A stretch of DNA of 64,000 bases, taken from contig NW_026570350.1 in the NCBI RefSeq assembly GCF_019649055.1, positions 248,001 through 312,000 on the forward strand, given 5' to 3'. The DNA is from Paramacrobiotus metropolitanus (Eukaryota > Tardigrada > Eutardigrada > Parachela > Macrobiotidae). The notes beneath the pieces were generated by a model. That model saw only the letters and a list, made by a program, of their open reading frames with translations. It searched no databases and was not told the DNA's origin. How positions within the stretch are numbered: the first letter of the stretch is position 1; each line of letters opens with the position of its first letter. Positions 3,126-49,761 of the stretch are shown here, one piece after another. The position numbers were made by a program, and so were the translations under genes.

Positions 3126-5619
3126 CTACGCTAAATGGCTCGCGTTTGTCGGATCGATAACTGTGCGCAGTGTGCGAAGATCCAGTTTCTGATCGCGTGA
3201 CTGGTAGATCAGTAGAAAATACGTCGCAATTATCCCGATGACCTTTATAAAACAGTTATATTACGTTTTCGTTATCTTAGAATTAGAAGCAGGACCTAAG
3301 TGAAGAATTTTTTAAGGACGGCATTACACAAACCAGTTGTAAAGGTTTCTTCGCTAAAGTTATTACCGCAACGACGAGGTGCCGTTGTTAGATAAATGCA
3401 TAGTACTTACAATCGTAACATAATCTCGGTTGACGTGAAAGAATCCCATTCCGGTTATGACACCGTCATCATTCTCGCAGCGCTGGACAAAATTCTCTAC
3501 TAGTTTTTCCACTCGTTCGTCGGTTACCACGGTTAGCAGGCGTTTCATTGACCGTTTGATGTCTTTTGCCTACGAAGCGCAATTCGTCAGCAGTACATAA
3601 TTTTCTCCAGTATTTCGCTGATCATCGGCTGATTACGTTACTTAATGAAAACTTATGACACACGAAAACTCGTATTATTGACTAATAAAACTGGGGTAAC
3701 CCAAAACTGCATCAACCACAGGGCGTAACTCAGCGCACGCATGTCGGCGCTGGGAAAACTGGAAAATATTACCAAAAGCAAAACTACCAGTACGTGAAGC
3801 CCATCATCGACAAACAGAAATACAGTATATTGGTGCAGGTCAGACTGCAACTATCATACCACAGAGTTTTATGCACCAGAACCTACGTCTGCAGTACGTA
3901 GGTTCAGCTTTTTCACTTGACCACTGGTTCTATGTTTCGGCTGTTGTATACAAAATTTGAGTGCTTAAATGGCTACCCAACGTTTTCGCCACTTTGTACT
4001 GTTGCCCGCGGTCAAAATATCTTTAAGGCGGAGTATATCATTCTCTAATAGCCAAAAAAACAATATTTTGAGTTTAGATTCTCTAATTGTGCCCAGGGCA
4101 GCTATTTCGCTTCCCACTGGAACTAGTACGTTGCGATGCCGGTCGCTGTATTCTGCTCGTGGCCGATACGAACTGACCTTGTCGCTGAAGCGAATTAACA
4201 CCACCAGATCCACGATAAAACACACGAACCCAATCCCGCCCACCATACAGTTGACCCAATTCACCGCATCCCGCTCTAGATTCAGCAGCTCCCCCATGAC
4301 AGCGATCCACGTCAGGAACAGGATAACGCAACGCAGGAACACCAACGGCCCGAACAGCGCATCTACCTCCTGTACAGAGTATACCAGTTGCCCGTATAAA
4401 CGCTGCAGTCGCGGTATACTTTTAATCATCTCGTCGGGTTTGACGGCAGCTAAACTGAAGTATTCCACTTCCTGGCGGATCGTGTCGAAGCTCTTCCCCA
4501 GATAGTGCACCATGCCGAAAAGCACGCCATACGGCACCGTACAGTTGCAGCTTAGAACGATACCCTGAAAATAATGTTCAGGAAGAAGCTTTTTAAAGTT
4601 TATCCTTCTCCGCTGCAATCATAATAAAACCGTAAAGAAACCAGGTCAACCAAAGAAATCAAAGAAGCCTGTGAAATCTAAGGAACTTAAGTAACCTAAT
4701 AACTGAGAAGCCTGAGTACCTAAGAAAACATAAGAAAGTACAAGAAACCTAGAGAAGGCTAAGAATCCTGACGAAACTATACCTAAGAACACAAGAGTAG
4801 CATAAAGTTTGTTAAAACAATTTTAAGCCAAAAAAATCACGAAATTAAGAGCTGATATTTGGTAGGTATTTGCACCCAGAATCAAAATTTTATACTGTTT
4901 TAAAAAAAACGGCAAAACCATATTTGGCAAAATAATGTTAACTATCTTAATAACAAATTTCGTTATCGAAATATTTTTTGTTGTGCATTTCGTTTTCAAA
5001 TCAGACTGCATTTTGTTTTCAAAAACGTTTAACACGGTTTGCCGTTTAACTTTACCTGGAAGATCAGCGCCGCGAAATGCATGTAAAAGCTCACGCCGGT
5101 GTCGTTCTCATTACCGGTAGACAGAACGCGAAACACCGGTTTCTTCCAGGTTTGGGTGCTCTGCAGGCGAGTATCAATATACGGCGCCACCATCGCCACG
5201 ACGTTGGCGACAACAAACACCCACGTTACTCCTACCAACACCGGCCAGACGCGGGTGGTCGCGCGGACCGCGGGAGGGACCACGGAATAGACCAATCGCG
5301 CCACCGTATACAGCCGGCGCATCTGGACGACGCACAGGACCGTGATCAGCCCGCCATGAATGTACAGGGTATTGGCGAACATAAACTGGATGACGCTGAA
5401 GAGCTCCAGATTCTGCAGCTGGGTGGCGTGCAGCCCGTACAGAAAGAGGATGCTGGCGCGCATGAGGAACAGGAAGATGACAAAGATGAAGAGCGACCAG
5501 AGTTTGAGGAGGATGGCATAGTGGGTGGTGGGCGGGACGCTGTACGGGAGAATACCCAGGATCTGCATCCACCGGTAGTAGAACATGGGGATGATGGTTT
5601 CTTTTGCCGGTGACTTCAT
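3126..5619 (-). CDS. Gustatory-receptor-like seven-TM chemoreceptor, copy 2 (4 exons)
   Basis: Model: complement(join(3126..3242, 3411..3569, 4178..4564, 5056..5619)), 408 aa, all junctions GT-AG and phase 0. It begins MKSPAKETIIPMFYYRWMQI, parallel to copy 1. It shows CTVPYGVLFG in the middle (copy 1: AITVPYGILI), GFFHVNRDYV at the end of exon 3 and TYFLLIYQ in exon 4, the gustatory-receptor signature. Where copy 1 has an intron after LYTQ, this gene reads straight through LYTVARLVYSVV. The two genes converge, with only about 295 bp between their stop codons. A family receptor is a multipass membrane ligand-gated cation channel in chemosensory cells; its ligand is unknown. Its second intron (3570-4177) contains an extra exon-like piece, listed separately. 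Confidence 0.78.
3660..3846 (-). pseudogene. Orphan receptor-like exon inside an intron of copy 2
   Basis: On the minus strand a good acceptor (ttgcag at about 3847) opens a frame encoding two hydrophobic stretches (VLVVLLLVIF and LSYALWLMQFW) before a stop at 3653. Its pattern resembles the last two TM segments encoded by exon 2 of the host receptor gene. The host gene is already complete without it, so this is either an alternative exon or a relic of a duplicated receptor exon. Resemblance is by hydrophobic pattern and position, not by strong residue identity. Confidence 0.35.
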
Positions 5620-5676
5620 TTTAGCAAGCTCTTAAAATGAGAAACCAAAATATCCTGATGAAGCAAATGCGTCTAT

Positions 5677-20707: not shown

Positions 20708-23700
20708 ATGGAAGCGGTCAAAGTGATAACCAGGGTCAGGCCACTCAGTCAGCGTGACATGGACATGCACAACAAGGTACGATCCTGTACAGTTTTTTTA
20801 GGAAAAAAGAAAACTCCGCCGAACTTGTACACCGATCAATCAAAAACTGATCAAAAATTTTAAGAGTAAAACTGATAGTTTAATGGGAAGCTTCAGTAAA
20901 ATATAGGGCATGCGTACAAGGGTGGTGCACTCATTATCCCCGCCCGTGTACACTGTCTGTGTAAAATTTGGTTTGTAACCCAAAGGTCATTCACTCGTTC
21001 CGCATTACGCAGTAATCGAGTATAACGGAGCCGTTTTTAATTGTCGTATGACTGTACTGGTAAAGCGTCCTTGTTGCATAAAACAATGTAATTATTAATT
21101 CGTTATGGAAACTGTGCATTACTTACAAGTTTACTGTTTGCAGAGCATCGTAACGGTGGATAAGAACAGCCGGGAAGTGCTGGTGGCCGGCGCTAATGGC
21201 AAGGATGGGGAGCTGCGGCGATTTGCTTATGACGGGGTGTACGGTCCCCAGGATACCACGGCCAGTATCTTTACCGAGAGCATCGTGGACCTCCTCGATG
21301 TACGCAGAGATTTTAATAAAATTCTCGATCCGTTGATGTGCATTGTGAATAGAAAAGATAGTAAATTGTGAGTTTTCGCTCAGGGCGCTTTGAATGGCTA
21401 TAACTGCACCGTTTTCGCGTACGGCCAAACCGGCAGTGGCAAGACCTACACCATGCACGGGCAGGAACAGACGGGGGCGGAGGAAGGTATAGTGTTTCGG
21501 TAAACACGATATTAACTGATGACTTTCGGTTTATTTCTTGAACGGTTAAGAGACCTAAGAAGCCTACACGGGAAAATTAAAACTCAAAATTTAGTATTAC
21601 TTGAATGACTGTGTTTTAATTTGTATTGTGCATGGAAGTGCTTCTCTGTTCTAGAACAGACTAACCCAGTCCTACATTGTACGACCTAAGGGTTAACGAT
21701 TTAAAAAACCCTAGAAACCCCTTTTTGGAAAAATATTAGTTAATATTGGATAATATATTATTAATATTGGATAATATATTGGATTAATACATTAGTTAAT
21801 ATTAGTTAATATTGGAAAACTATCTTGGAAATTCTGAATATTTGAAGAGAAAATTTAGAACCGCCTAGGCTCTCAGTTAAATGTGTGACCTTTCGTTATA
21901 GTGCCATCGATTACATCTTCGGACAGATGGACCAGCAGGCAGACGGCTGCCGCTCCCTGGTGTACTGCAGTTTTCTGGAGATCTACATGGAGGAATTCCG
22001 TGACCTTCTGAAACCCGGCCACCATCCGCGAAGCACCCCGACAGCGGGAAATCCCGTTTATCATTGCATGAAGCTAAAGATCGGTCGCCGTATGTCGAAG
22101 GTCTGACCACGGCCACCGTGCAGAATGCCAAAGAGTGCCGTCATTATCTTAAGAAAGGTGTGAGTGGCAAACATTCTTTAATGGGTCGTCACTTATGTAT
22201 GGTTTTGATTAGGGTTATGCGCGCGCCAACAAGCGGCGACGAAGATGAACACGGACAGTTCCCGGAGTCACGCCATCTTCACCATCACTGTGGAGGTCTC
22301 CCGGCTGGTGAATGGGGTCAGTCATATCACCATGGCTAAGGTGAATTTTGTGGATCTGGCGGGGAGCGAGCGGCAGGCCAAAGCCGGTATGTCTGTTCTT
22401 TACTGCAAACCCCATTTCTGCACTTCAGCTGAAATAATAAGCAAGGTTTCCAAGAGAACTGTCAGTTCCAAAATTTCATAGCGGTTTAATGAGATTAATG
22501 CGAACGAAGTGTCTTGGGCTTCCTGATTTCCTTTCATATTCGCTTTTTTACGTTGCCCACAGTTATTAATACTCGAACAATTTATGTTTCGTTTTCCTAT
22601 GTGGCGCGTAGAGTAGATATGATCGTGCGATTTTCAATAAATTTAGGCCATTACGGCATATTGGCCCCTCAAGACGGCTTCCGAATTTCTGGTGGCGAAT
22701 TTTTATTTTTCTGACTAATGTTTGCAGAACAACCTAGTTTGAAGTAGCAAAAACGAAAATGAAAATGAAACGAAATTGTACATTTTTTAAAACTTTCAAC
22801 ATAAACGCAGACACACACGGCGTTAATACATCAGGCGGTTTCACCTGTAACACGCGCTGACAGTTGTTGAATTTCGTTTGCTAAAAATTGCCAGCTTTTA
22901 AGGCCTTCGTAGAATTTCAGTAAAATCAGATGGAAAAGATATTTTCGCAGGAATACGGGGCAGTTGACGGTAACTCATACACATGTTTCTGGATTCTTGG
23001 ATTAAAACGTTTTAAGCAATAAACACAGTGCGAATATACAGACTACATATACAGAAATATACAGAATATACAGAATAGGTATACAGAAAGTGCGCTGTAA
23101 TTACAGACGCTATACGAGACCGGCAGAACGAAGCCATCCGCATCAACCTCTCGTTATCCACCCTGGGTCGCGTCATCCAAGCCCTAACCGACGGCAAGTC
23201 CACCCACATCCCCTACCGCGACTCCAAACTAACTCGCCTTCTGGAGACCTCCTTGGGCGGGAACGCCAAGACCGTCATGATCAGCTGTATCTCCCCGGTG
23301 GACGACAACCGCGAGGAGTCCCTTAGCACCCTCTCCTACGCCAGCCGCGCTAAAGCCATCCGTAACCAGCCGGTAGTTAACACCGATCCGCAGACCGCCC
23401 TCATCCGGCAGTATCTCGACCATATCCGCCGGTTGGAAAACCAGATCGCCCGCATCCCGGTGAATGATGAGGAGCGGCAGCGGGAGATTGCTGCGATTAA
23501 GGAGGAACATCACGAAGCGATGCGCCGGTTGGAGAAGGAGCAGGAGGCGACGCTGGAGCGGTTCGCGCGGCAGATGCGGGAGGCGAATGAGGAGGAGAAG
23601 CAGCGGTTGGTTCGGCAGAAGGAGGAGGAGCTGGATCGGATCTATAAGGAGGTGCTGCAGCGGGAGCGGGAGGAGTGGAAGCGGCTGGAGATGGAGAAGG

Positions 23701-26700
23701 TCGAGGAGCTGAAGCGAATGGAGGGGAAGCTGACGAAGGCGGCGGAGGAAGAGAAGCGGCGGATACAGATGGAGTTCGCGCAGGAGATGAAGCGGTTTAA
23801 AGTAGGAGAACGGCATACATAAAAAAACACATAGAGTTATATAACGAATTTAAATAACCTTTAACACATACGAATACTCAATACGATTTTGAAAAATATA
23901 AAACAAAATTAAAGGTTTAGTATAGGTAAATTTATTATGGACCATCCAATAAATAAAATAATTATACCATAAATATACGTAAAATAATTTACCGTTGTAC
24001 TAGAATTTCGGCGTTCCTAGCGCCTTAAAAGCAAAACGAATAAAGCAACTGAAAAAAAGAAAAGCGCAGCTGCGTTTGTTGCCATTACCACCAGGCAATG
24101 GTATTATCTTCCCTTTTAGGAAGAAACTGAAGCAAATGTCCAATCGCAAAAGCTAGAACTGGAAGCACAGCAACGCCGGGATCTTGATATGTACAGAAAA
24201 ACATTACAAGAGCAAACTGATCAGCAGCGCGATGATTCCATTGACCAAGCGAAGAACCATTTCGATAAAGAACTGCAAACCAAATTGGCCGAACTAGAGG
24301 AACGTCATAAAGGTCAAGTAGAAGAAATCAGATGCCAGTTAAAAGCGCAATACACCGCCGATCTGAAGAAGTATCAAGATGAAAAAGAGGCTCAGATACA
24401 ACGCTTACACGAGGAAAATATTTCCAAGACACGCCAGCTTTTGGATGAACTGTTGAATAAACAAGAGAGAGAACTACAACGTTTGATGGAGAACCACGGG
24501 AAATTAAAAGAACGTTTAGAAAAAGAGCAAAACGTTAATTTCCAGAAAAGAATATCCAGCTTGGAGCAACAAAATAAACAAGAACATGCCGTTATGGAAA
24601 AGCGATATATTAAGCGGATTGAAGAGTTAAGAAAAGGTCATGAACGTGAAGTTGAAAACCTCCGCCTGGAATCAACTGATAATCAAGCTAAAGTTGTTAA
24701 AAAGCTGGAAATCTTGCATTTGAAGGAAATAACAGATTTAAGTAACGGCCACGTGGAGGAGGTTGAACGGTTAAAAAATGGGCATGTGCTGCAAATAGAA
24801 AGCATTTATCTGGAAAACGAGGCAAAACTCGCATCAGTAAAACGGTATTCAGCGGAAAATCTGCAGAAACTAGAAAACGAGCATCGAAACCGGATCGAAC
24901 AAGCCAAAGACTTATTAACCAGAGAGTACGAGCGAAAGATCGAAACGCTGAACGCGGAACTGGAAGAGCAGCGAGTTCAAAATTCGAACCGCGAAACCGA
25001 ATACACCAACGAAATCGCCGAATTGCGCTCGGATTATCAACAAGAAATCAGCGCACTGCAGCGCGCCAATAAAGATTGCAAACAACAGATCCTTCGCTTA
25101 GAAAGCGATTTGATTAAGCTGGAAAAAGAAAAGGTCAAGGGCAGTCAGCAATCCGTTCAGTGCGAGCAGTTACAGAAAGAACTGCAGACTAGTCAGGAGC
25201 TATTGGCCGATCAACGACAGAAGGTCGCCGAGATGGAAGACGAGATTCAGAAGCTGCGGGAAGAGCGGTATTTTGCGCTGGATGGTAAAGCGTTTGTGGA
25301 GCAGCAGATGCGGGAGTTGAATAAGGTGCGGACAATGGAAATACCGCGGGAAGGGAAGAACGGGATGCTGTCGGCGATGGAGAGTAGGAATCTGCGCACT
25401 CCGCATGGGCGGGTCCCTAGCGGGAACGGTGGGAGTGGGATGCTGCAGCTTTCGGTATCCGGAAGGAAACTAGCTGACAGAAGTCTTGTGTGTCACAGTA
25501 GGTAAACCATATCAATACAATAATTAATTAGAATACAGTAAGATTTAACCAAAATATACTAAAATATATGTGGCAAAAACCAAAATATATACCAAAAATA
25601 TACTAAAATACATATGGACTAAAAAATATTTAACCGTAATGTAAGTAATCCTACGTATTTTATTTTAGTACATTTTTCTTTTTTTATTTAATTGTTTTGT
25701 AAATCAAATTCTGTTGTAGTGTGCACTTTGTGGTATTAGTATTTTGACGGCTATTGCGGTATTGCCTAATAAAGACGCTTATTTATTTTTAAACTGCATC
25801 CATGTATTTTTATTTTGATATTGTACGTGAACGTATTGTACATGATGAACGTATTGTACATGATGAACGTATTGTACATGATGAACGTATTGTACATAAT
25901 AAACGAGTCTTAACTTTTCTTTTAGAGCATCCGCAGCTTCTGTTGATTCACCAAAGCCTGATCGTATAGCGGCGCCAAAACGACCAACAAGTGCTCGACG
26001 AGAAGCTCTAATCAGTAGGTAACTACGACTCACGGGAGAATCGTCAGTGCGTTATGAAATCATCACTGATATGTTATGCAGCTACATTTTGGTAACGATC
26101 ATCTAGAAATTAACGGTTGATTTGTTAGAGGCGGTTGCCGGTATCAACGCGGAGTCCTTACTGCAAGCGGCGCACCACGAATACGAAGAGCAGCTGAACG
26201 AGTGCATCCAGCATATCCACGATAAGGAAACGGAGGTTCGAGTAATTTTCAATAATTAACCAGCATCTTGCTTGTAATGAATATTTTAATAATTTTAGAT
26301 AGACTGCCTGCAAAATCGGCTGCATGAAGAATCTCGCCACACCCAGAAAGAACTCGATGGTATCCAGCATGAAAATTTAAAGCATCAGCAACTGGCGCAG
26401 CTGTACCGGCAGATTGTCAATACGGTGCTACCGCACCTTCCGGAATGTAACTACCGCAATCTCCATGATGTCGTGCAAGCGGCCACGTGGAACGATATTG
26501 CCGGGAAATGGCAGTTGCCCGCGGTGGAAGTGGCGGTTTCGGGGAGGTGCGATATTAGTCTGGATTTACGACCCGTGTCCCGACGGTCGGGACGAAGCAG
26601 TTCGTTGGTGCGACAGACAGCGCATGGTAAGTGAAAAGCGTTCTCTCGATATTTACCGATCCGTTTCTTGGTGAGTGAAAAGCGTTTTCTTGATATTGAA

Positions 26701-29525: not shown

Positions 29526-29530
29526 CCTGC

Positions 29531-29621
29531 GGTTTTTCTGCTCAGATACTTCACAACTGTTTCTTCGCAATCTGTCGTTCTGTGGTTTTTCTGCTGAGGA
29601 ACTTCACAACCGCTTCTTCGC
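29531..29621 (+). repeat. Direct repeat in the kinase 5' UTR or core promoter
   Basis: Two copies of a 39 bp sequence (29531-29569 and 29583-29621) share GTTTTTCTGCT and ACTTCACAAC, then CTTCTTCGCAAT-type ends, with few differences. They lie just after the TATA box and before the ATG. Confidence 0.7.
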
Positions 29622-29694
29622 AATTAAGCATTCGCTCAGTTAATTTTTTTTGCTAAGTTACGCTTTTCTCCGTACTTTCGAAACCGCTTAAAGA

Positions 29695-31950
29695 ATGAGT
29701 AATTTACACTATAAAAAAGACGGTTCACTGGACATGCGCTACTCGTCATCGCGAGCCGCCGCCGCCAGCAGTTCCAGCAGTAGTACAGCGTATCCATCGT
29801 CTTCCATATCGGCACCCAGTCCCAGCTTCACATCTACCAATCCCAGCAGCAGTACAGCGTACCCATCGTCCTCCGTGTCGGCACCCAGTCCCAGCTTCTC
29901 TTCCAACATTTCCATGCCCTCGTACCGCGAATCTTCCGCCAGCAGTGATCTGCACTACAAAAAAGACGGAAGTTTGGATATGCGGTACACTTCATCGCGA
30001 GCCGCTTCAACCGAACCCAGTGTCGCTCGGGCAGTCCCGACGGCCAGTACAGCCAGCAGTGACCTTCACTATAAAAAGGACGGGACGCTGGATATGCGGT
30101 ACAACTCTTCGCAACAGGCGGCCAGCGTCAGCAGTCCCGTAGCTGCGGCGCCTGCTGAGCGGGATGATCGGCATTATAAGAAAGATGGCTCGCTGGACAT
30201 GCGGTATACTTCGTCGAAATTAGCTAGTGTAGCGAAAGATCGTAATGGCGGTCTGCATTACAAGAAGGACGGGACGCCGGACATGCGATATACTAGTTCT
30301 AAGCAGGCGGCAAACAACAACCATTCAGCTGGGTAAGCTCATAAGCTTCCAAACGATTTTGAAACCAAACCAATAATAATTATTATTCACGGTTATAACG
30401 GATACTTCGATCAATATAACAAACTACCTAACATCATTTGGCAATTAAGTGGCATGGATCCAGCTGGTCAGCAAATGTTTAATTGTTATACGGACCGACA
30501 CAGTTCAACTGTGAATATCAGCGCAATCTGGATGTTCGGGATTACGAAAATTCACTCACATTGTTCATACACTTTATCCAGGAAATTGTTTCACTAACGT
30601 CGTCACTGACATTTTTTTCATTTAATTGCTTTTTGATTGTTTATATAGTTCCCAGCCTAACGCTGCGCTCGTTCCGGAAAAACTACACTACAAGAAGGAC
30701 GGCACCCTGGACATGCGCTACAAATCCAGCCGTAACGCCCAACAAGAAGTGGATAACTACAACGCCCACGCTCGGGAGGAGTATCTAGAAAATCTGATGC
30801 AGGAAGCGGCGCTGCGGCGTTTGTGGCAGCAACAGCAGGCGGAAGTCATCCAGATTCCTCGTCAACCGGAATACATAACACCGGAACATCTGGCGACCAT
30901 CCGGCAACAGTACACCCAGCTGGAACGGGGCGACATTGACAGCATTCGTCTGGACGATGCCCGCGAGATCCCGTATACCGCTCTAAAGATCACTGGTAAG
31001 AAACTCGGTTCCGGAGCGTTTGGCGACGTGGTCCTGGCGGAATGGGGCAGTATGCAGGTGGCGCTGAAGACACTGCGCCCGGAAGCGCAACCCAACCGCC
31101 GCGAGAGGCAGTTATTCATCCGGGAGATCGCCATCCTGGCGCAGTTAGGCAAGCATCCCAATCTGGTGGCGTTTCATGGGTACTGTCTGGACCCGTTGAG
31201 CATCGTGATGGAATACGTGGAGCTGGGGAATCTGCATAATTTGCTGCATATTTGTGTGGATCGCCAGGTGGAGCTGAAGATCGCGGATGGGCGGATTAAG
31301 AAGAATATCATCATCGGGATCGTGGATGGGATGAAAGCGCTGCACGATGCCGGGATCGTGCACGGGGATTTGAAGCCGCAGAATGTCCTGGTTGACCGGA
31401 AGTATCAGGCGAAGATCACAGATTTCGGGCTGGCCAATCTGCGTTACAAGGCATCGTCGGTGGTGCACACGGAGAAAAGTCAGGATTACGAGATTATCGG
31501 TAAGTGTGCCAGGAAAATACCAACCGTTTCATGTAGAGTATACAGGAAATCTGCAAGTACATAACGTTTTCGTTTTTACGCTTTGCAGGCGGCACTGCTG
31601 CTTATATGGCACCGGAATCCATGGACAGCACCAAGGAGTCTAATTTCAGTCAGCCTAAGTTCAGCAGCGACGTCTACGCTTTTGGCATCGTGCTGAACGA
31701 GCTGGCTACGGAGGAAGAGCCATACGCTGATCAGTACCGCAACTTTGCCGGTCATGGTCCGTTCGCCGCTGTGAAATTCGCCCAACAAGGCCGCCGACCA
31801 CGCATCGGAGAGAAGGTCCGCGCCGACCTCGTGGCGCTGATTAAGAGCTGCTGGGACGCCAAGCCAGAGCGTCGTCCGACCTTTGCCAGCATCCAGGAAA
31901 CGGTTCGCGGCAATCGCTTCCAGATGCCCAACGGTCCCGGTCTGAACTGA
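29695..31950 (+). CDS. Protein kinase with N-terminal LHYKKDG-DMRY repeats (3 exons)
   Basis: Model: join(29695..30332, 30649..31499, 31589..31950), 616 aa, with consistent GT-AG phases. The first 240 residues carry six copies of HYKKDG[S/T][L/P]DMRY followed by xSS[K/R]: at about residues 5, 85, 124, 159 and 187, and a sixth in exon 2 at about 225. Between the first two lies a duplicated Ser/Pro-rich block (SSSTAYPSSS, SAPSPSF). A linker with a predicted helix precedes a kinase domain (about 325-610): GSGAFGDV loop, VALK lysine, HGDLKPQN catalytic loop (HGD, not HRD), DFG, APE and WDAKPERRPTF. Residues needed for catalysis are present. The fold looks TKL-like, and HGD makes it a non-RD kinase. 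Repeat function is unknown; similar KKDG-xDMR motifs occur in assorted proteins, but I cannot name the family. A decayed paralogue lies 3.6 kb downstream. Confidence 0.85.
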
Positions 31951-34900: not shown

Positions 34901-35515
34901 GCTGATATAAATCACCTATAGTCCAGTATCATTATTAGCCGACTCTTTGAATCTCGATTCATAAATGTTTAAACGACTACTCACACTTTTTGGCTTTTAT
35001 CGATTATGCCGAACAAACCGGCTTGGCTGAAAGCAAGTCACACTTTCATGAGTCATCCGCTTTACACTGCACATCTCTGCATGCTGAATGCTGCCATGCT
35101 GAATGCTGCTTTCCTCTCACATGTTGAAAATCCATTCATCGAAACGCTAGCAGAATTTTCCACTTTCCGGTAGATGCGTTGCCGGTGCATAGAAGTACAG
35201 TACTGGTACAGTAACGGTTGAACACACATCGTACAATTTTTGCTCGCTGGCTAATATTATTACACCGTATCCGCGTATCGTATGTATTGATTTCTAGCGT
35301 GCCAACTTTCAAAGGAAAGCTTTAAATCTGAGACACACTTTGTTTTGCGATTTGCGCCAAAATCCAGATGTATTTTCATCAGTAAATACTACCTACGCTT
35401 TTGTTTGGACCGATTACGTCGAATTGTTTCTGCGCAGTCCGTCCGCCTCAGACTCGTTAAATTCTTATTAATTAATCCTTTTTCTCTGAGATTGTTTGGC
35501 TCACGGGAAGTGGAT
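31951..35515. other. Intergenic between kinase paralogues; possible minus-strand exons
   Basis: No complete gene is seen. Three minus-strand frames look mildly protein-like: 34165-33902 (ends in a CAG|GTCACT donor), 33662-33393, and 33039-32755 with a hydrophobic stretch MRFTFIFLRAVTVVVALVAV. They could be exons of an unresolved gene, but I could not connect their phases or recognise a family. A 52 bp hairpin lies at 33001-33052. Confidence 0.3.
33001..33052. repeat. Short hairpin
   Basis: Arms CGCTAGCTCGGAAATGATG (33001-33019) and its complement (33034-33052) pair at 18 of 19 positions around a 14-nt loop. It could be a small fold-back element or an RNA hairpin. Confidence 0.7.
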
Positions 35516-37304
35516 ATGCGCAGTGGTCCCCCGAAATCAGTCGGTGCGTCGGAAGATCACGGTACCGGTGTGCATTTGAAAACGGATGGGAATATGGATG
35601 TGCAGCATAAGGATAAGGGTTCTAAGGAGACGGCAGATAACAACTCCTCAGCAAGGTACGTTTACTCCAGTCCAGGCGGATGTGAATGGTGGAACAATGT
35701 TCTATTAAAAACATTTTGTGAACGCTGCATGTGATTTTGCCGCATTTTAAACGGTTATGGCACTTATAAACTTATACTTACTTACGTATAAAAAGTTGGC
35801 GATATGGCACTTATGAAAGTTGTACGTATAAGAACTATAACTTGGGCTTACCGAATTTTTTTAACAGTACCAAAGTAAAAGTTGGATACGTTTGTGTTTT
35901 CATTTTTTAAATGTTGGCTTTTATATGGTACTCGATTAACATACAGGCAAAACCAGAAAGATGACGCGCCTGGAAAATTCATAAACGATCTGATACAGGA
36001 CGACGCGCTGTTGTATCAGTGGCTGAAAGAGCGGTCGGAGACCTGCGCGACCGCCGACTCTTCTTTAAACGAAGCTCGCGCGATCCCGTACGCTGCTCTT
36101 CAACTCACCGAGACGGGACTGGGTTGCGGTTCGTTTGGCGAGGTAACACTAGCCGACTGGGGCCACAAACAGGTCGCGGTGAAGACCCTGAGCCCAGAAG
36201 AGGATGACTCTCCCCGCCAGCGGCAGTTATTCGTCCGGGAGCTTGCCATCCTAGCGGAATTAGGCCGTCATCCCCATCTGGTGGGGTTCTACGGGTACTG
36301 TCCGGACCCGTTAAGCATTGTTATGGAGTACGTGGAATTGGGGAATCTACATTATCGGCTGCATTACTGCCAGGATCCCCAGGTGGTGGCGAAAGTGAAA
36401 GATGGACGGATTAAGAAGAAGATCGTCGTGGGAATCGCGGAGGGGATGACAGTATTGCATTCTGCCGGGGTGGTGCACGGGGATTTGAAGCCGGATAATG
36501 TGCTGCTGACCCGGGAGTACCAGCCGAAGATTATCGATTTCGGCCTGGCGAATCTGTGCTGCAAGGCGTCCACGGTGGTGGATGCTGAGAAAGGATGCGA
36601 TTATGAGGTTTTCTGTAAGTGCAATACCAATGCAAGTGTTGCCAGATTTTCCATAAGGACTCGAAAGAATTATGTACGTGTTTAATCACATAAAACGGTT
36701 TTTAAGTGCAATCAACATAAGGCAGGAAATTATGCTTTCTTTAAACGCATATTGCGCAAAAAAGCGGCTCTCTGTTTGAACCCCGGCGATCTCTGCGCAT
36801 TCTGCTGTGTCCCTGCACCATCATTTTTTGTTAATTTATTAATAAATTTCTGAATGCCGATTAACGATTTCCTAGTTCTGTATTATACGCACAACATGTT
36901 GGTGTAATAACGTAAAAAAGTGTTTACGCTTTACAGGTGGCACTCCGGCTTACATGCCACCGGAATCCATGGTCTGTGATCAAGAGCCCACTTTTAAGGA
37001 ACCAGACTTTAGCGGCGACGTCTACGCATTCGGCATCCTGCTGAATGAGATGGTCACCGAGGAGGAGCCCTACGCTGACCAGTTCGAACACTTTGCCGAG
37101 CAAGGTGGGCTTGCTCTTAGGAAATTTGCTCAACAAGGCCACCGACCACGCACTGGAGAGAGCCGGTGCGGATCTCGTGTCGCTGATCAAAAGCTGTTGG
37201 GACGCCAAGCCAGAGCGCCGTCCAACCTTTGCCAGTATCCTGACAACGGTACACGCCAGCGAGTTCCAGATGCCCAACGGCACCGCTCGTCAATGAAGCC
37301 TTAA
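35516..37304 (+). pseudogene. Degenerating tandem paralogue of the DMRY-repeat kinase
   Basis: Exons 35516-35655, 35947-36614 and 36937-37304 follow the same intron positions and phases as the upstream kinase. The kinase core is well preserved: GCGSFGEV, VAVK, HGDLKPDN, DFGLAN and DVYAFG, with APE changed to PPE. The N-terminal array is nearly gone. Only VDMRSGPP and a weak HLKTDGNMDVQHK remnant remain, and the ATG equivalent to that of the intact gene is lost, so the start at 35516 is a guess. In the C-lobe a 2-nt deletion after HRPRTGE (near 37160) shifts the frame. The expected DLVSLIKSCWDAKPERRPTF segment survives in another frame to 37296, while the actual frame ends at 37304. Either a recent pseudogene or a kinase with an altered C-terminus. 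Confidence 0.75.
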
Positions 37305-48243: not shown

Positions 48244-49077
48244 CTAATCCGTTACTGTCAAAAACGCGTTCTGCACCAGCCATTCTTCCAGCACATCATC
48301 CGCCCGGAACCAGCAGCTATACCGGCCAGCGTCCTCCCGCTTCACCGACTCAATAATCAGCGCCATGTAGCACTTCCCCTCGATCGCTTTCTGCCACCAA
48401 ATCATACCTTTCCGACGCCGCACTACATGGCGCAGATGATCTGCGTAATTGGCTAGCAGGATGTCGTGATCGTTGGTCCACATAAACCGCGGCTCCAGAC
48501 CGCCGAACATACTGTCGAATCGCACACAGCAGCGCATCTCCACGCGCTCCCCGATCTTAGCGGTGACGTTCTTCATGGGCGGAGTGAAGAGCTGCTGCGC
48601 GGTGAACACAGCGCTGACGACATACCGCTGACTGACAAAGACCTCGGCCCCACTGTACCATCGGCATTCGTAGCGCCCGGTACTGGAGTGGCTGAAGTCC
48701 TTTAATGTGACAGTGAGGAAGGTGCTGTTGTGCGGATGTACTTTGAATCCAACCAGCGATCCGGTGGCGTTGGTACATCCACAAGCGGTGGCGCTGCGGC
48801 TCTTCTCCGGTCCACTGTCCGGCCTGGTGAATTCCATGTCATTCCAGCCGATCGCCGCGTGGCTGTTGCCGTCAGGACGCGTAGAACGGGTGTCGTGGCA
48901 GTGGAACGTTACCGGCGCTCGTTCCGCTGCCTTGATTAAGATGACATTGCGAAGGGCATACGGGTGCCAAGACGGATTGGTGAGGTTTCCTAGGTGTACT
49001 GACCCGCTCGGGTTTCTGAAACGGGCAGCATCTAGTCGCTCTAGGACTATAATGATAAAAATTTTAAAGTGCTTCAC
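48244..49077 (-). CDS. Immunoglobulin-domain protein, two Ig-like domains
   Basis: An open frame of 277 codons encodes two Ig-like domains. The first has VTFHCHD and the hallmark DFSHSSTGRYECRW. The second has VEMRCCVRF, RFMWTND and VKREDAGRYSCWF (D-x-G-x-Y-x-C). Extra paired cysteines (CGC at about residues 98-100) suggest further disulphides, so the protein should be extracellular. It ends FLTVTD with no TM segment or GPI-type tail. The first ten or so residues (MKHFKIFIII) are doubtful. The codons cover a good 3' splice site (TTATCATTATAG, exon from 49046), so the real N-terminus and signal peptide probably lie in an upstream exon I could not identify. Role, such as adhesion or recognition, is unknown. 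Confidence 0.72.
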   Translation of the reverse strand: MKHFKIFIIIVLERLDAARFRNPSGSVHLGNLTNPSWHPYALRNVILIKAAERAPVTFHCHDTRSTRPDGNSHAAIGWNDMEFTRPDSGPEKSRSATACGCTNATGSLVGFKVHPHNSTFLTVTLKDFSHSSTGRYECRWYSGAEVFVSQRYVVSAVFTAQQLFTPPMKNVTAKIGERVEMRCCVRFDSMFGGLEPRFMWTNDHDILLANYADHLRHVVRRRKGMIWWQKAIEGKCYMALIIESVKREDAGRYSCWFRADDVLEEWLVQNAFLTVTD

Positions 49078-49761
49078 AAAGTATTTTTTTGAGGTATGTT
49101 ACAGTGCGCACTGCGCATCCGCCTGCAGTTTCTGGAAAAAAATAATGTCAGTATGAATTCAATTATTCAAGTATTCCTTTTAAAAAGCGCGAATTTGTTT
49201 CTTGAGCTGATACAGGTCAACAACCGTTAAACGATCACAAATGGAAATTCACTGCAGAATATCTACGCTAATTTATATGGTGCCACTACAGTTTGTGACG
49301 TCGTAGCTGGCCCTATTGAACGGTTCAGACGGCGGCGATCCTCCAAATACTTACACAAAATTTTAACGAAACGAGAAACCCAACTGTGTTCGTCTGTGTT
49401 GTGAAAAATTGTATAATCAAGAGACATCAGCTGTACGTACCAACGCACGTACGTACTAACCGAAATGATTTAGCCCAGTGTTTATTGACATACAGAGTAC
49501 TATTACGTTTGGACACAGTACAGTAATATGTAAATACGGGTTCTTAAGTTAAATGCGTATTACAAAGTTTTTTAATAGAATTTGTTCCACAAGCCAAATC
49601 AAAGTAAATTACCTGTTGCCTGCTACTAGTACTTACTTTCTTCCCGGCTCAACCATCTCTTAGCGGGGCAAGCCATAGTATGACACACAGCAAAGGTGAC
49701 AATAAAATGAAAGAAAATCTCCATTCTGGTTTTTCCTTTGCGATAACAGAGCGTTGAATAT

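Follow-up and report, generated by a model that had tools for sequence, protein, structure and literature searches.

Within the window, by which we mean the whole 64,000-nucleotide stretch of Paramacrobiotus metropolitanus DNA that was analysed, positions 29695 to 31950 of the forward strand hold a three-exon gene of 616 codons plus a stop codon, the frame of which is unbroken across splice sites that were predicted by eye (Table 1). The gene boundaries are exact, with an ATG at 29695 and a stop codon that ends at 31950, and both introns have GT...AG ends and preserve the reading frame. In the encoded protein, six HYKKDG[ST][LP]DMRY units precede a protein kinase domain. A 45-nt direct repeat (87%) lies upstream at 29527-29624, in the presumed 5' untranslated region. 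Two introns and a neighboring duplicate make bacterial contamination an unlikely source, and it was set aside.

Table 1. Features of the kinase gene and its downstream duplicate. Positions are those of the window; aa, residues of the 616-residue protein.
Feature	Position	Strand	Remarks
Exon 1	29695..30332	+	start codon, units 1-5, Ser/Ala-rich linkers
Unit 1, HYKKDGSLDMRY	29707..29742	+	aa 5-16
69-nt tandem duplication, 84% alike	29769..29906	+	within linker 1
Unit 2, HYKKDGSLDMRY	29953..29988	+	aa 87-98
Unit 3, HYKKDGTLDMRY	30067..30102	+	aa 125-136
Unit 4, HYKKDGSLDMRY	30172..30207	+	aa 160-171
Unit 5, HYKKDGTPDMRY	30256..30291	+	aa 188-199; all 12 residues as in L132 (bacterial) and in L033 and L057 (viral contigs)
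Exon 2	30649..31499	+	unit 6, probable helical linker, kinase from Gly loop to past DFG
Unit 6, HYKKDGTLDMRY	30686..30721	+	aa 226-237
TKL-type protein kinase domain	30995..31899	+	approximately aa 329-600; split by intron 31500-31588
Exon 3	31589..31950	+	APE motif through C-terminus and stop codon
Downstream duplicate: frame holding a single degenerate unit, VHLKTDGNMDVQHKDKGS	35507..35653	+	
Downstream duplicate: kinase exons, identity 60-74% depending on the piece	36062..37284	+	3' part matches in two frames

A Pfam search with the whole 616-residue protein gave only PF07714 and PF00069 above cut-off, the former with E = 1.1e-50 over residues 329-601. That search, which was general rather than RHIM-specific, matched no death domain, ankyrin domain, RHIM, or dsRNA-binding domain, and a match to PF01795 at residues 226-282 (17.3 bits versus a cut-off of 27) was below cut-off and was taken as chance. 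The catalytic elements are complete, comprising GSGAFGDV, the lysine of VALK, the αC glutamate of IREIA, the aspartate of HGDLKPQN, DFG, and APE; together with the Pfam match, they bear out the preliminary description of a catalytically complete HGD-type kinase. Since the nearest solved relatives, among the best 60 of 2591 structure matches, were CTR1 (E = 6.8e-39), RIPK1 (approximately 1e-34), B-RAF, and RIPK4, the domain was assigned to the TKL kinases. It is like plant CTR1, animal RIPK1 and RIPK4, and RAF in its domain and motif set, but those kinases have no array of KKDG units and the catalytic loop here reads HGD. In these TKL relatives the kinase is accompanied by RHIM, death, ankyrin, or Ras-binding parts. 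A structure prediction for the exon that encodes unit 6 and most of the kinase was too poor to use (38.6). We conclude that the kinase domain itself is an ordinary TKL domain and that the N-terminal array is the novel part of the protein.

The 12-residue core of the array is present in all six units and is followed in each by xSS[RKQ], in agreement with the earlier account of six regular repeats with conserved KKDG and DMR. The serine richness claimed for the linkers was also confirmed: these 16- to 70-residue segments are rich in Ser and Ala and of low complexity, Ser making up 55 of 164 residues. The units are net basic (19 K/R versus 12 D/E across 78 residues). When all 15 pairs of units were pooled over the 12 core codons, pS was 0.953 versus a pN of 0.047; over 17 codons the contrast was smaller (pS 0.875, pN 0.139) because residues outside the unit core vary. 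The unit peptide is thus under strong purifying selection. Synonymous change between the units is saturated and the copies are therefore old and retained by selection at the protein level, and on the same ground we reject the idea that the units were tandemly duplicated or homogenized by gene conversion in recent times. The sole recent-looking duplication in the array is the 69-nt one in linker 1. Chance can be dismissed as the origin of the array because the pattern KDGxxDMR had 16 matches in the 169.8-Mb genome (533 contigs) versus 2 for the reversed control; 6 of the 16 are the kinase array.

The same module, KKDG[TS]xD[MK]R[YF]Kx[NS]K, is common to the kinase array, a subfamily of host retroelements, phage proteins, and bacterial proteins. 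All six kinase units satisfy its core, KKDG[TS]xD[MKL]R[YF], with xSS[RKQ] in place of the K-x-N-K tail of the bacterial and phage form; the retroelement tail is K-x-S-[KR] in 10 of 11 copies and K-P-P-K in L018. Exact patterns recovered from the genome the six units, eleven reverse-transcriptase loci (L010, L011, L013-L020, and L024), and 0-2 stray matches per search versus 0-3 for reversed patterns. These searches for other host genes covered exact patterns only, one of which found only unit 5, and a protein search of the genome (E up to 10) added one weak match, C35 (E = 3.55). Three further candidates were rejected: C289 reads KKDGRLDRR in a frame resembling a retroelement integrase by eye, the frame of C4 is filled with stops, and C154 reads GKDGANDMR, which is not the module.

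The module-bearing retroelement ORFs start with M..LRRKKDGSLDMRFKTSKDH or similar, L010 and L011 reading ..TSNLHYKKDGTLDLRFKTSR, and several copies are short or broken frames. Like the kinase, they hold the module near the N-terminus, but in a single copy, followed by a reverse transcriptase (RVT_1, E = 8.3e-18, shown for L014) and not by a kinase. In eight of ten measured loci the motif starts 11 residues after a Met, and 36-37 residues separate its end from the conserved RIPK block, the exceptions being L020 (2 residues after a Met) and L018 (RIPK block not found); a CxxC pair in the motif slot was seen in none of the ten. Synonymous and nonsynonymous differences between the retroelement copies (pS 0.77, pN 0.05) resemble those between the units. 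The wider reverse-transcriptase family (L195-L212, G000) has at least 150 scored matches in the genome. Of 261 candidates, 150 matches were scored, 18 upstream stretches chosen by eye were fetched, and 17 were read. A complete C2HC-type finger occupies the same N-terminal slot in 13 of the 17, two of which (L195 and L206) print identical letters; the other four hold a partial finger (L199, L209, and L211) or a remnant of the motif (L212). Within one part of the family, the module thus appears to stand where relatives have an N-terminal finger. In a tree of 22 rows, 14 of them labelled zinc finger, including three from partial-finger copies (L302, L303, and L308), a single change accounts for the motif-bearing rows, but support is weak (71/56; a single change also suffices in 68% of bootstrap trees) and a long branch (L307) joins the tree at these rows. 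This topology hints at one exchange between finger and motif.

Unit 1 and L010 agree at 76% over 21 residues, equal to the agreement of unit 1 with units 3 and 6, and both have SN ahead of the module and SRAA behind it; in the same alignment, the four remaining retroelement rows agree with unit 1 at 38-52%. Kinase and retroelement copies depart in the same way from the bacterial form, mostly with L for P and S for N. The two sets of modules probably share a common source within the lineage, as judged from these likenesses. One reading built on that source takes the array as a PKR-like sensor of retroelement or viral RNA or DNA, activated by dimerisation, with its module taken from the retroelement protein. 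It would account for the outcome of the exact-pattern searches, which located the module in this genome in the kinase and, within a zinc-finger slot, in one subfamily of reverse transcriptases but nowhere else, and for the joining of a multivalent N-terminus to a TKL kinase. The DNA favors neither direction of transfer, identities being 27-38 of 54 positions between units and retroelement copies and 30-42 between units, and we regard this reading as improbable.

A pattern search of genome contigs found the bacterial module, GPTKKDGTPDMRYKANK, in at least 119 stretches (L076-L194), where it lies in secreted-looking proteins, mostly from Bacteroidota; of the 80 listed, 79 carry names recognised as Bacteroidota and one is from the Bdellovibrionaceae (L137). 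Two copies of the module are present in 103 of the 119 ORFs: the listed frames have two copies in 68 cases, one in 10, and three in 2, and the 39 further stretches have two in 35, one in 3, and six in 1. In 116 of 119 frames (79 of 80 listed, 37 of 39 others), a hydrophobic stretch consistent with a putative signal peptide comes ahead of the first motif. Measured from stop to stop, the frames have a median length of 116.5 residues (80 listed) or 120 residues (39 others), and the modules are often on a K/A/T-rich tail. These proteins repeat the same module as the kinase, but they have hydrophobic starts and short frames, and no kinase was seen in them. The frame with six modules, L163, is secreted-looking and 256 residues long, with a hydrophobic start and K/A/E-rich spacers; we view it as an apparent bacterial parallel to the kinase array, and since it too repeats the module six times, multiplication of the module would be a recurrent theme. 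Among the 80 listed, two secreted-looking Bacteroidota proteins have HNH-like ends. That of L132 has weak support (Pfam HNH, E = 0.086; PDB Cas8-HNH, E = 0.009), and that of L154 is recognised by its D-H pattern only, Pfam finding no HNH in it.

The exact occurrence of the unit 5 peptide, HYKKDGTPDMRY, in L132 and in the viral-contig ORFs L033 and L057 (12 of 12 residues) bears on whether the kinase, retroelement, phage, and bacterial modules are alike by convergence on a favorable short peptide, a reading compatible with any function. The module is only some 12-16 residues long, and two places, named above, distinguish the eukaryotic copies from the bacterial form, as convergence would allow. 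A complete match of 12 residues between a kinase unit and a bacterial protein argues against it, as do the flanks common to unit 1 and L010. We consider convergence somewhat unlikely.

The bacterial pattern left free the residue after KKDG, the next residue, and the tail, so that these positions could be scored in the 47 distinct 14-mers (27 from listed loci and 20 from unlisted). The residue after KKDG is T or S in 46 of the 47 (26/27 listed, 20/20 unlisted), P follows it in 30 of 47, and position +12 is N in all 46 of the 14-mers that reach that place. Viral matches of a looser pattern have T or S after KKDG in 18 of 19 cases. Counts from a table of 147 segments are uninformative in this respect, its regular expression having fixed K, G, [TS], D, and R beforehand, and the 5 invariant columns among 34 in the module alignment come from rows chosen by that same expression. 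The free positions bear on the proposal that the units are substrate or pseudosubstrate sites of their own kinase domain, making the array a platform for self-phosphorylation. Every unit offers a Ser or Thr after KKDG and a Ser-Ser after DMRY, and the linkers are Ser-rich. The same Ser/Thr is held by bacterial copies in proteins in which no kinase was seen, and by the viral copies, and self-phosphorylation of this unit residue is less likely because copies outside kinases retain it; moreover, the rest of the motif is also conserved, which a phospho-site alone would not need. The preliminary description had offered a platform for binding or self-phosphorylation: the binding part fits the conservation of the units, whereas the self-phosphorylation part is weakened by the bacterial Ser/Thr residues, and we give it little probability. 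Phosphorylation of the Ser-rich linkers is possible.

In viral contigs, KKDGxxDMR was found in 37 stretches, with the motif displayed by 33 open frames. Some of the 33 are not module-like (e.g., KKDGTRDMRW or KKDGSLDMRKLL), and others are GPLKKDGTPDMRFKANK-like and lie within the tape-measure proteins L034, L031, and L051 (best PHROG E values of 5.5e-12, 2.1e-12, and 2.4e-10, respectively, with phrog_4372 best for L051 and L034). The pattern KDGTPDxR[YF] gave 86 viral stretches, 80 of them listed. Among 70 newly listed viral ORFs, many of them close relatives of one another, the motif is at the extreme C-terminus in 51, near the N-terminus in 6, and inside in 13; for all 76 new ORFs, 55 are C-terminal, 3 of these being cut by the end of the stretch. 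Many ORFs of L213-L282 are approximately 190-220 residues long and have a tail like VPLKKDGTPDKRYxKK. The terminase small subunit L215 (phrog_606, E = 5.4e-10; PF16677, E = 4.8e-9) carries the motif at its N-terminus, and L225, a phage protein with a C-terminal module, has membrane-like segments by appearance and no PHROG match. A search of the PHROGs left 5 of 10 ORFs without a family in one set and 9 of 10 in another. A tblastn search with the bare 22-residue peptide, a short query and hence an insensitive one, found no annotated phage or plasmid homologue, nor did two whole viral-contig ORFs find an annotated homologue; a third matched five records, which were Synechococcus phage tape-measure proteins, over 5-6% of its length. 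Two of the viral ORFs were also searched against the PDB, where nothing useful was found.

These placements are what would be expected if the units were a structural helix cap or spacer lacking a specific partner, a linker or solubility element for long disordered tails. The module forms the extreme C-terminal tail of most of the new viral ORFs, it is internal to tape-measure proteins and part of K/A/T-rich tails in bacteria, and its AlphaFold model (34 residues, 73-row alignment) is a turn with a Y12-P18 bridge followed by a helix at residues 20-33. The model has a pLDDT of approximately 85 over residues 11-20, but with a mean pLDDT of 71 and a pTM of 0.31 it is only fair overall. A spacer should drift more than the kinase units have, their 12-residue core being nearly unchanged despite saturated synonymous divergence, and the retroelement copies behave likewise. 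Conservation among the bacterial and phage copies is only partly usable against a spacer because the search patterns fix part of the motif. We judge the spacer reading to be unlikely.

The motif was also sought among known domains, by sequence in Pfam, NCBIfam, and the PDB, and nothing usable was obtained. None of five module peptides matched a curated Pfam model at cut-off, and NCBIfam likewise gave none at cut-off, with two matches below it for one of the five (a 72-residue part of an ORF); no characterised domain that would explain the repeat was therefore identified in either collection. PDB matches to Scone and Cake (best E = 3e-5), which we take to be designed proteins, share only DGTEKWRFK with the module and were treated as chance. 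Similar KDGTPDMR strings presumably occur in unannotated database proteins. The motif strings were absent from 5.39 million open-licence papers, a body of text that excludes most subscription papers and all figures, and neither the motif string nor wider wording retrieved a description of the repeat combined with a kinase, in keeping with the initial statement that the combination had no described function; the wider wording brought up a single paper, on a transposase, which is unrelated. The suggested search for the motif across genomes did find it, and not as a property of this kinase alone, since bacteria, phages, and a host retroelement carry it. A peptide of 12-16 residues thus spans Bacteroidota, phages, a retroelement, and a kinase of one animal genome while matching no curated model at cut-off.

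Our favored, though tentative, reading is that the array is a multivalent docking platform that clusters, and so activates, the TKL kinase, which is of the serine/threonine type, binding and clustering both being inferred. A docking array is in keeping with the conservation of the units, their repetition, the low complexity of the linkers, and the presence of a complete kinase. A probably flexible Ser/Ala-rich N-terminus would display six short, self-contained KKDG[TS]xDMR[YF] modules, each a turn leading into a short helix that may bind one ligand weakly, and the six copies together would provide avidity. A polymeric or clustered ligand would then bring kinase domains together and activate them by trans-autophosphorylation. 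RIPK1- and RAF-like TKL kinases are activated by trans-autophosphorylation. Because the module is also in a retroelement, phage proteins, and small secreted-looking bacterial proteins, it is suggested to be a general-purpose docking peptide that is not peculiar to this kinase. The leading guess for the ligand is a nucleic acid or another polyanion, because the module fills a zinc-finger slot, is found in a terminase small subunit, and is net basic in the kinase units; the phage terminase small subunit is a DNA-binding protein. A nucleic-acid role is kept at the level of a leading guess because the phage protein with membrane-like segments carries the module; tape-measure proteins and secreted-looking bacterial proteins are likewise hosts not evidently bound to nucleic acid.

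PKR is an eIF2-alpha kinase with repeated dsRNA-binding domains. We propose that the present protein resembles PKR only in the way it would work, with repeated N-terminal binding units before a kinase and activation by clustering; its units are 12-residue peptides rather than dsRNA-binding domains, and its kinase is TKL by its matches. The most far-reaching version of this proposal, in which the kinase amplified a mini-module shared with the retroelement sixfold to become a multivalent sensor of foreign or retroelement nucleic acid, an independently arisen PKR-like defense kinase, with the module an undescribed cross-kingdom binding peptide, seems to us a long shot. The kinase, the six copies of which are under strong selection, is a good handle for identification of the partner; were the partner a nucleic acid, the protein would represent a new kind of multivalent sensor kinase.

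A second TKL-type kinase lies 6 kb downstream at 35507-37284. Its main exon is 64% identical to that of the kinase described here (58% over a wider 275-column alignment), and it may be a pseudogene because the match to its 3' part falls in two reading frames. A single degraded unit was all that was found ahead of this duplicate and, for that reason, the array may be dispensable there, though the duplicate itself is possibly dead. Elsewhere in the window, positions 23079-25502 encode a kinesin motor domain (PF00225, E = 8.1e-33 on 23079-23819) and, after it, a long ORF that is charged and coiled-coil-like, and an ORF at 48247-49098 on the reverse strand has weak matches to immunoglobulin domains (best Ig_3, E = 9.2e-7, 29.7 bits versus a cut-off of 30; I-set, 24.1 bits versus a cut-off of 23.7). 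ORFs at 227-781 and 1163-1816 on the forward strand and at 3968-4618 and 5032-5631 on the reverse strand resemble multi-pass membrane proteins by eye and are perhaps related receptor-like genes in opposite orientation.
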